Shown here: piece after piece, positions 11,109 through 12,078 of the stretch
Layout: each line of letters begins with the position of its first letter
Numbering within the stretch: position 1 is the stretch's first letter
NCBI GenBank assembly: GCA_947166385.1
Contig: CAMVEB010000020.1
Coordinates: 1 to 64,000 of the forward strand
Length of the DNA: 64,000 bases
From: an uncultured Clostridia bacterium
GTDB lineage: Bacteria; Bacillota; Clostridia; Christensenellales; Aristaeellaceae
Reading direction: 5' to 3'
The notes under the pieces: generated by a model
The model's database searches: none
What the model saw: only the letters and a program-made list of their open reading frames with translations
Told to the model about the DNA's origin: nothing
Position numbers and translations under genes: made by a program

Positions 11109-11140
11109 AAAAAACCTTGCAGACTTTGATCTGCAAGGTT
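11109..11140 (-). terminator. Terminator of the tRNA-Ala/tRNA-like RNA transcript
   Basis: On the minus strand the 10-bp perfect stem AACCTTGCAG/CTGCAAGGTT (11113-11122 with 11131-11140) is followed by a six-T run. It comes 6 bp after the last tRNA-like 3' end, in the place where the other units carry their separator hairpins. Confidence 0.85.
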
Positions 11141-11146
11141 TTCTTG

Positions 11147-11302
11147 TGGAGCATAGGGGAGTCGAACCCCGTCTCGCTGCGCTTCGCTTGCTCGGTCAGG
11201 TTCGCAATAGTCGGCTGTCTTCTCTGCCGTTCGACAGCCTTCTTTGCTCACCAGGCTTCCGCCTCGCTTCATCCGCCACTGGCGGCGCTTCGGCTACGCC
11301 CC
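11147..11302 (-). ncRNA. tRNA-Ala-like RNA, copy 1 (156 nt)
   Basis: On the minus strand it begins GGGGCGTAGCC and ends in a T-arm GGGGTTCGACTCCCC plus TATGCTCCA. The first seven bases pair with ATGCTCC as an acceptor stem including G3-U70, the alanine identity pair, and the discriminator base is A. Between these ends a body about 80 nt longer than a normal tRNA replaces the D and anticodon arms. It contains the hairpins CCGCC-AGT-GGCGG and GGCTGTC/GACAGCC, and no normal anticodon arm is seen. It is identical base for base to copy 3. It could be a tRNA mimic, a decayed tRNA with an insertion, or a new non-coding RNA. Open frames over it in several phases are not credible genes. Confidence 0.6.
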
Positions 11303-11360
11303 TCTCCAATGCATTCAGTGCAATGACGGGGCAGGGGATGCGGACACTCCGTGCCCGCAT

Positions 11361-11401
11361 AAACAAATCAGGATATCCATGAAGGATATCCTGATTTGTT
11401 T
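11361..11401 (-). promoter_or_regulatory. Separator hairpin between tRNA-like copies 1 and 2
   Basis: An 18-bp perfect stem AAACAAATCAGGATATCC with its complement around a 5-nt loop. It starts 1 bp after the 3' end of copy 2 on the minus strand. It looks like a weak terminator or an RNase processing hairpin; the T-rich tail (TTTGTTT) is inside the stem. Confidence 0.6.
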
Positions 11402-11402
11402 G

Positions 11403-11534
11403 TGGAGCATAGGGGAGTCGAACCCCTGTTCCGCATGCTCAATCGTCGCGACTCCACACTGTGGAGATCGCTCGTTTCGCATGAGGCTTCAGCTGATGAA
11501 ATATCCGCCACCGGCGGTCATCAGCTGAAGCCCC
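11403..11534 (-). ncRNA. tRNA-Ala-like RNA, copy 2 (132 nt, different body)
   Basis: It has the same ends as copies 1 and 3: 5' GGGGC and a 3' T-arm AGGGGTTCGACTCCCCT, then ATGCTCC and A. The acceptor pairs 6 of 7 bases including G3-U70. The body is different in sequence. A 15-bp arm GGCTTCAGCTGATGA pairs with TCATCAGCTGAAGCC and encloses a CCGCC-GGT-GGCGG hairpin shared with the other copies. A second long arm is closed by CATGC/GCATG and contains CTCCAC/GTGGAG. So two arms lie where D and anticodon arms would be. The long first arm uses the GGC of the acceptor, so the two folds compete. Confidence 0.6.
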
Positions 11535-11592
11535 TCTCCAATGCATTCAGTGCAATATCGAAATCAGGGATGCGGACACTCCATGTCCGCAT

Positions 11593-11632
11593 AAACAAAT
11601 CAGGATACCCATGAAGGGTATCCTGATTGTTT
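11593..11632 (-). promoter_or_regulatory. Separator hairpin between tRNA-like copies 2 and 3
   Basis: The stem AAACAATCAGGATACCC with its complement GGGTATCCTGATTGTTT, with one bulged A and loop ATGAA. It occupies the same position as the other separator hairpins but with a changed and re-paired upper stem (ACCC/GGGT instead of ATCC/GGAT). Confidence 0.6.
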
Positions 11633-11633
11633 G

Positions 11634-11789
11634 TGGAGCATAGGGGAGTCGAACCCCGTCTCGCTGCGCTTCGCTTGCTCGGTCAGGTTCGCAATAGTCG
11701 GCTGTCTTCTCTGCCGTTCGACAGCCTTCTTTGCTCACCAGGCTTCCGCCTCGCTTCATCCGCCACTGGCGGCGCTTCGGCTACGCCCC
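11634..11789 (-). ncRNA. tRNA-Ala-like RNA, copy 3 (156 nt)
   Basis: Identical to copy 1 over its whole length and over about 60 bp of upstream spacer, giving a direct repeat of roughly 215 bp. The spacer carries the conserved hairpin ATGCGGGCA/TGTCCGCAT and the small palindrome TGCACTGAATGCA shortly before the GGGGC 5' end. It is the first tRNA-like unit after the true tRNA-Ala in the transcript. See copy 1 for structure and alternatives. Confidence 0.6.
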
Positions 11790-11847
11790 TCTCCAATGCA
11801 TTCAGTGCAATGACGGGGCAGGGGATGCGGACACTCCGTGCCCGCAT

Positions 11848-11887
11848 AAAGAAATCAGGATCACCATGAATGTGATCCTGATTCTTT
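11848..11887 (-). promoter_or_regulatory. Separator hairpin after tRNA-Ala
   Basis: The stem AAAGAATCAGGATCAC with its complement GTGATCCTGATTCTTT, with one bulged A. It directly follows the 3' end of the genuine tRNA-Ala on the minus strand. Compared with the other two separators both the base (AAAG/CTTT for AAAC/GTTT) and the upper stem have changed on both arms. Confidence 0.6.
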
Positions 11888-11888
11888 G

Positions 11889-11961
11889 TGGAGCATAGGG
11901 GAGTCGAACCCCTGACCTCGACAATGCGAATGTCGCGCGCTACCAACTGTGCTAATGCCCC
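11889..11961 (-). tRNA. tRNA-Ala (anticodon CGC)
   Basis: A 73-nt cloverleaf on the minus strand, with the CCA end not encoded. The acceptor stem GGGGCAT/ATGCTCC includes G3-U70, the alanine identity pair. The anticodon stem CGACA/TGTCG carries the loop TTCGCAT, anticodon CGC, reading GCG. The T-arm is AGGGGTTCGACTCCCCT. The D stem GCAC/GCGC has one A-C mismatch (positions 12-23). It is the first element of a transcript that continues into three tRNA-Ala-like RNAs. Confidence 0.93.
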
Positions 11962-12049
11962 GTATATGCTTCCCGGATATTCCGGGGAAGGCTCCTCGAC
12001 TTTATCGTCCTGAGGTCTGGGACTCCACGGCTTTTCAGCCGCAAACGGG

Positions 12050-12078
12050 AGTATAACACAGCGAGCGGGAAAAGGCAA
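12050..12078 (-). promoter_or_regulatory. Promoter of the tRNA-Ala / tRNA-like array
   Basis: On the minus strand: TTGCCT (12073-12078), a 17-bp spacer and TATACT (12050-12055). The predicted start is near 12043, about 80 nt before the tRNA. Leader hairpins follow (GCGGCT/AGCCGT and CTTCCC/GGGAAG). I see no other promoter inside the array, so the tRNA and the three tRNA-like units are probably one precursor of about 930 nt. Confidence 0.75.

Follow-up and report, generated by a model that had tools for sequence, protein, structure and literature searches.

Displaced 3' halves of a tRNA-Ala(CGC) gene with a structured repeat in their variable loops: probable scars of rearrangement in a Clostridia genome

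The window, i.e. the whole stretch of 64,000 nucleotides analysed here (contig C20 of an uncultured Clostridia bacterium, whose assembly comprises 96 contigs with 4.38% contamination), contains on its minus strand a tRNA-Ala(CGC) gene followed by three repeated units. A promoter, this tRNA and three units had been described in the first-pass annotation, and the layout is real. The promoter-like site (TTGCCT-17-TATACT, 12050..12078) matches 9 of 12 consensus positions and has a TG in front of its second hexamer; as two such sites occur in the 1.4 kb region versus 0.8 in shuffled sequences, the match alone is no proof. Of the leader of the tRNA transcript (11962..12040), a part with a CCTC..GAGG hairpin is similar in relatives: G002, G018, G020, G030 and G036 align with the window leader and tRNA at 81-91%, and positions 12087-11607 agree with G023 at 79.7% in the alignment. 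The tRNA gene itself (11888..11961) is ordinary and intact and scores 61 bits with the Rfam tRNA model.

Behind the tRNA the same order occurs three times: a terminator-type hairpin, then the tRNA 3' half in inverted orientation, then a unit made of an anticodon-arm remnant, a structured body, a T-arm and the 3' strand of the acceptor stem. The first round comprises hairpin T0 (11848..11887), a decayed inverted half (11801..11847) whose position is homologous to strong cases in relatives, and unit 1 (11634..11800), in which the anticodon-arm remnant TGCATTGGAG precedes body A (11684..11790), a structured repeat at the variable-loop position. Hairpin T1 (11593..11632), an inverted half (11546..11592) and unit 2 (11403..11545) with body B (11432..11535) form the second round, and hairpin T2 (11361..11401), a decayed inverted half (11314..11360) and unit 3 (11147..11313), composed as unit 1 and carrying a second, identical copy of body A (11197..11303), form the third. 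A last hairpin (AACCTTGCAG..CTGCAAGGTTTTTT, 11109..11142), seen by eye, stands at the end. The CTCCA ends of the three units lie at 11634, 11403 and 11147 with a spacing of 255/231/256 bp. Units 1 and 3 run for 156 nt without a difference, as had been stated before, and the tRNA and all three units agree in every one of the 22 nt that make up T-arm and acceptor strand. Each copy of body A scores 120.4 bits (E 1.1e-23 for the first) with model R1, whose 20 founder rows include that of the window. Body B, which had been taken for an unrelated sequence, reaches 28.9 bits with this body A model (window E 2.6e-4) and represents a diverged member of the same structural family.

A terminator-type hairpin is found behind the tRNA and behind each unit; our terminator rule, which gives 3 sites in the region versus 1.4 in shuffles, flags one of the four (T1), and the other three were recognized by eye, T2 also by folding. 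The hairpins vary from unit to unit with compensating changes, which selection on an RNA would also give. With z at -5.2 and -5.4 the folds are stable, a further point against the reading as scars given below. With such hairpins in place, the single transcript that had been assumed is unproven. The array is not a product of chance, since further genomes show this architecture downstream of a tRNA-Ala or tRNA-Val gene, including G023, G036 and G002, which are assembled in one or two contigs.

The inverted halves were assessed by aligning the reverse complement of the 60 nt before 20 units to the tRNA 3' half, with 1000 mononucleotide shuffles each. Among these rows, which are partly related by descent (G001 and unit 1 of G023 have the same upstream sequence), not one shuffle was as good in 12 of the 20 units, and at most 4 of 1000 were as good in 16. 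Units without an equally good shuffle are of the alanine kind in G023 (units 1 and 2), G036, G002, G017, G001 and L039, and of the valine kind in G002, L056, L059, L064 and L068; L052 followed with 1 shuffle per 1000, unit 2 of the window with 3, and L067 and the valine unit of G036 with 4 each. The copies before units 3 and 1 of the window are weak by themselves (25 and 36 of 1000), and those of the valine units L053 and L066 are not significant (117 and 146 of 1000). In direct orientation the control stayed mostly at chance, with L056 (4/300) and L059 (7/300) above it. Because inverted 3' halves precede the units, the arrays run from a direct half over a terminator and an inverted half to the next direct half. 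In unit 2 of G023 the inverted half lacks the body, an empty variable loop thus standing beside a filled one, and an altered GCGAC acceptor end is common to the inverted half and its direct partner; this sharing would fit template switching or conversion from arm to arm.

The body, about 105 nt long, is a structured repeat of its own. With a 19-base pattern from its core 36 stretches were retrieved from genome_contigs, 33 of them under Clostridia-type titles (many from ruminant gut); three of the 36 (L044, L069 and L072) look like chance matches by context. Folded freely, the 20-row alignment A1 gave 28 pairs, of which 14 are changed in both partners. Model R1 matched 57 times at E up to 0.05 in the window and 51 chosen loci, and in the 51 distinct rows 94.4% of the cells pair and 26 of the 28 pairs are changed on both sides (16.8 on average in shuffles; none of 500 shuffles came as high by any of five measures), figures that lean upward because the alignment was fitted to the model and the founders match by construction. 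The structure is still supported, since the free fold of A1 and slid controls of the R1 alignment, of which 30-42% paired, speak for it. Furthermore, the internal loops hold conserved bases.

A T-arm with up to one mismatch was found within 60 bases downstream of 24 of the 57 matches and is absent in 33, among which at least L107 and perhaps L111 are, by eye, broken tRNA contexts. Inspection by eye also unveiled a broken T-arm or acceptor strand in 4 of the 24 tRNA-context copies, with L109, of unclear tRNA type, as a fifth. Body A also occurs outside tRNAs, and so do B-like copies in G023, G001 and G036; a body C is present in relatives. Under strict filters, which lose weak matches, 25 of 61 genomes matched R1 at E up to 1e-3 (23 of 37 in the genus, 2 of 24 outside it), and the window genome holds at least eight matches (150 of 2982 candidates scored).

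The window genome has further copies. Contig C22 carries a 3' half with unit A and has the window's right flank in common to about 11037 at 96.7%. On contig C29 a variant tRNA-Ala with unit A lies at 25 kb, an anticodon arm with body A in the variable loop and a T-arm at 31.7 kb, and a 3' half without a body at 44.4 kb. A tRNA-Val on C45 holds a body of about 80% similarity (by eye) in its variable loop, and ARAGORN calls no tRNA for this insert-bearing gene. Read by eye, the anticodon arm is kept and the body sits in the variable loop in this copy, in the tRNA-Ala copy at 31.7 kb on C29 and in a tRNA-Val on C133 of G034. G034 is assigned to the same genus as the window genome. The insert need not be removed for the sake of tRNA-Val function, because the window genome has insert-free tRNA-Val(CAC) genes on C32, C40 and C55.

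Being short, stem-loop forming, dispersed and also present inside genes (genic contexts by eye), the body has the properties of a small palindromic repeat. At the end of an ABC-transporter-like gene (L051) an open frame passes through copies. In-frame insertion as in Rickettsia was considered and set aside; the L048 copy inside a parA-like gene seems, as read, to break the parA frame. A REP-type transposase was likewise discarded as mobilizer, as no R1 element lies in the 11.4 kb around the four Y1 matches of the window genome; the two of these loci that were examined contain one inverted pair. The body might nevertheless be the acting part, i.e. a selfish or regulatory RNA element that enters tolerant tRNA variable loops and uses the tRNA half as its landing pad. 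Its strong covariation, the conserved internal-loop bases and its placement in variable loops of both tRNA-Ala and tRNA-Val copies are consistent with this idea, and PMC2229807 offers the closest known case, palindromic elements of Rickettsia in tmRNA and RNase P RNA genes. However, no mobilizing enzyme was identified, the copy number is low, and more than half of the R1 matches are without a T-arm behind them; we consider the body an unlikely driver of the array.

In relatives the tRNA-Ala(CGC) gene is the landing site of integrative islands, at least some of which have a large serine recombinase at their end. In G018 an intact tRNA is followed on one contig (C5) by three further 3' halves at distances of 5.8, 15.4 and 30.0 kb. 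The first interval contains a large serine recombinase in two open pieces, ending 230 bp before the 3' half, the second a restriction system of type I, with HsdR, HsdS and HsdM recognized by Pfam, and the third a short piece of a recombinase that is 3 kb away from the 3' half there. The upstream flank of the G023 tRNA corresponds to contig C41 of G001 at 95-98% and the downstream flank to C33 of G001 at 86-91%, so that G023 represents the empty site relative to the G001 island. At the C41 junction the tRNA 5' half extends up to GGTAG in the D-loop, after which come 96 nt and a complete tRNA-Ala; the genes beside this junction include those of a methylase of EcoRI type and of two proteins of GmrSD type. 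At the C33 junction a recombinase precedes GGTAG and the 3' half, 220 bp from this displaced half. The two junctions have only GGTAG in common, and short shared cores are, according to PMC5704250, usual for serine recombinases. Both contigs, which are not joined, probably end one and the same island.

The recombinases of G001 and G018 carry the Pfam domains Resolvase, Recombinase and Zn ribbon. Of the recombinases located at 3' halves, the G001 enzyme alone forms one long frame, and those on contig C29 of the window genome are C-terminal pieces. Comparison of 25 tRNA-Ala 3' halves from 21 chosen loci, 16 with a 5' half and 9 without, revealed a recombinase of this serine family within 1.5 kb upstream of 3 of the 9 clean 3' halves (at 220, 220 and 230 bp) versus none of the 16 intact genes; within this distance it is absent from the other 6 clean halves. 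The body-bearing half at 31.7 kb on C29, which is outside the 25, has a recombinase piece about 200 bp upstream, and in G013 (L087) the recombinase starts near the 3' half and reads away from it. As for tyrosine integrases, none of the 59 PF00589 matches in G000, G001, G013, G018 and G034 lies on the contigs that hold 3' halves (G000 C22 and C29; G001 C33 and C41; G013 C3; G018 C5; G034 C116), of which C5 spans the whole 3'-half set of G018 and the others may be cut, G008 (L086) being outside this search. Islands at the tRNA gene with a displaced fragment are therefore present in G018 and, by comparison with the empty site G023, in G001, and no tyrosine-integrase island was found on the 3'-half contigs named. 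Beside the window array there is neither an integrase nor a serine recombinase of this family, and contig C20 has no PF00589 match.

The units could also be tiny site-specific cassettes or stacked attachment sites, an integron-like array with the tRNA 3' half as recombinase core. Bodies A, B and C are swapped between fixed ends, tRNA 3' halves occur here as displaced island ends, and the unit borders fall in the anticodon loop, a usual crossover place of tyrosine integrases according to PMC4383910. Stacked integration at one core, however, does not give the inverted half that the units also contain, the crossover of the G001 island lies at GGTAG in the D-loop and not in the anticodon loop, and the window array lacks both kinds of enzyme nearby, which makes such cassettes improbable. 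The related suggestion of the first-pass annotation, cassettes that restore the tRNA 3' end upon each insertion, holds in part: islands of relatives displace the 3' half and bring along either a new tRNA end or an entire tRNA, whereas the units themselves are decayed quasi-palindromic 3' halves with a dispersed repeat in the variable loop, and probably not cassettes that restore the gene.

According to the first-pass annotation, each unit can form an alanine-type acceptor stem with G3-U70. In the window, copies 1 and 3 can indeed form all 7 pairs of this stem and copy 2 can form 6 of them (a full 7/7 arises in 0.09% of draws of a random G-rich 7-mer), but the stem is not kept in homologous units. 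Five of the eight Ala units with an acceptor strand pair at 6-7 of 7 positions (the three window units, unit 1 of G023 and one at L067) and three at only 3-4 (unit 2 of G023, G017 and another at L067); in four further Ala units, one of them cut by a contig end, the script found no acceptor strand. The homologous start of the Val units pairs at 2-4 of 7 positions in all 11 tested and at 4-5 in the best shifted register. The first five to seven letters of the stem derive from the variable loop and the start of the repeat. In the ensemble of copies 1 and 3 the stem reaches P about 1.0 only when cleavage falls precisely at GGGGC and remains below 2% with 75 nt of upstream sequence; in copy 2 it amounts to about 1% or less even if cut.

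A complete cloverleaf (RF00005) was called only for the tRNA at 11961-11888 and for none of the three units, and a scan of the whole window with 4227 Rfam families at gathering score returned the tRNA itself only. With tmRNA (RF00023) unit 2 scored best, at 21.2 bits (E 2.2e-6 in a 981-base search) versus a gathering score of 47, which we take to be due to its T-arm and acceptor strand, and ARAGORN found no tmRNA in the window. The perfectly kept T-arm and acceptor strand of the window units, the strongly conserved body structure and the tmRNA-like score of unit 2 would suit functional tRNA-like RNAs that are cut from the tRNA transcript with the body in place of the D and anticodon arms, but with a stem that is poorly paired in some Ala units and in all Val units tested and that rarely forms with upstream RNA, units behind terminator-type hairpins, 3' ends broken in some tRNA-context copies and so many bodies without a T-arm, such RNAs are very unlikely. 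Thus neither charging by AlaRS nor a role as decoys or regulators, both proposed initially, finds support, the GGGGC start belonging to the variable loop and the repeat.

We therefore interpret the array as probable scars left by rearrangement of the tRNA-Ala(CGC) gene and not as a family of working tRNA-like RNAs. In relatives, the gene is split, the half that extends from the anticodon arm to the 3' end is displaced, and the island brings a new 3' half or a whole tRNA; the place of the recombinase suggests it as the agent of the splitting. Since no recombinase stands beside the window array now, the step from an island scar to this array is one that we infer. The turn-round points between direct and inverted halves are the anticodon loop and the position after the terminator hairpin, and template switching during replication at the anticodon and terminator hairpins could have made both the inverted and the extra direct copies. 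The structured palindromic repeat (A and B here, C in relatives) occupies the variable loop of the direct copies. Copies freed from selection would tolerate such an insert, and its spread by duplication or gene conversion would account for the identity of units 1 and 3. If RNA is made from the units at all, it would be read-through beyond the terminator-type hairpins.

In the tyrT operon of E. coli a tRNA gene is followed by about three repeats, each with a piece of the tRNA 3' end, in the region that yields rtT RNA. The units described here differ by their inverted halves and variable-loop insert; RtT was absent among the 23 Rfam matches listed at E up to 10. A phage origin was rejected: blastn versus phages gave 35 records, the best 20 of which all fall in the tRNA part of the query (best match 74 bases at 95.9%), and the body core had 0 exact matches in viral_contigs. 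The Islander islands, as PMC4383910 presents them, are alike in having an intact or restored tRNA with a displaced 3' fragment and in the occurrence of several such fragments in a row at one tRNA gene, as in G018. By the statement of that paper of 2014, tyrosine recombinases alone were known to target tRNA genes; in contrast, large serine recombinases are found here, and the fragments also form short quasi-palindromic arrays without an island. The Rickettsia palindromic elements, in PMC2229807 short repeats of 105-146 bp with long stem-loops, located between genes and inside genes including those of tmRNA and M1 RNA (RNase P RNA), resemble the body in kind; the body differs by preceding tRNA T-arms in the variable loop and by its low copy number. 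Template switching at quasi-palindromes, as outlined in PMC8794818 and PMC7202029, would explain inverted copies at hairpins and compensating changes in both arms; here, as deduced from end products only, it would have built whole arrays of tRNA halves. Among the matches listed in open-access literature, judged by title and start of abstract, neither such an array nor the variable-loop repeat nor serine-recombinase tRNA islands are described.

Hence no new class of charged RNAs is needed to account for this striking locus. The large serine recombinases seen beside a tRNA gene go against the tyrosine-only rule of PMC4383910. Also new is a covarying structured repeat without an Rfam match at gathering score, which occurs in tRNA variable loops and at other sites. 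Arrays that mimic designed tRNA-like RNAs could arise when templates are switched at a terminator and an anticodon hairpin, and for annotation, the antisense of these T-arms yields short open frames that are probably spurious. More tentatively, serine-recombinase islands may split the tRNA-Ala(CGC) gene in its D-loop and carry a replacement tRNA, and the repeat might then prefer the variable loop of the freed Ala and Val copies, a possible route to chimeric tRNA-like genes that would be tolerated or perhaps even used as RNAs.

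In the window, the leader running from the promoter-like site to tRNA-Ala (12040-11962, minus strand) contained, as judged by eye, a hairpin of the form CCTC-AGGAC-NNTAAA-GTC-GAGG. The same kind of inspection located the CCTC..GAGG hairpin in the leaders of several relatives as well, and it is possibly a processing or regulatory structure. Short open frames on the opposite strand of the array (11117-11869, plus strand), such as MFVEHRGVEPRL.., correspond to the antisense of the T-arms and are likely spurious.

Among the related genomes, the integrative islands at tRNA-Ala(CGC) carried restriction genes (locus L156, 4553-8790; locus L081, 10286-16267), the G001 island encoding an EcoRI-type methylase together with GmrSD-type proteins and the G018 island a type I restriction system. 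At two further loci (L087, ~4281; L161, ~12730) a complete tRNA-Ala was preceded by two consecutive tRNA 5′ halves, an arrangement that would fit scarring by several islands on the 5′ side as well.

The tRNA-Val(CAC) genes of L084 (9344-9530), L065 (2500-2720) and L134 exhibited several acceptor types, alongside what appear to be chimeras of 5′ and 3′ halves. In some genes of this set the variable loop held the structured repeat. Outside tRNAs, the repeat was observed as double, head-to-tail copies (L103, L112, L123). Furthermore, it occupied an apparently identical operon junction in G031 and G015 (L105, 1501-1606; L125, 1501-1605), between genes which by eye look like two subunits of indolepyruvate oxidoreductase; given this shared position, some copies may be old.
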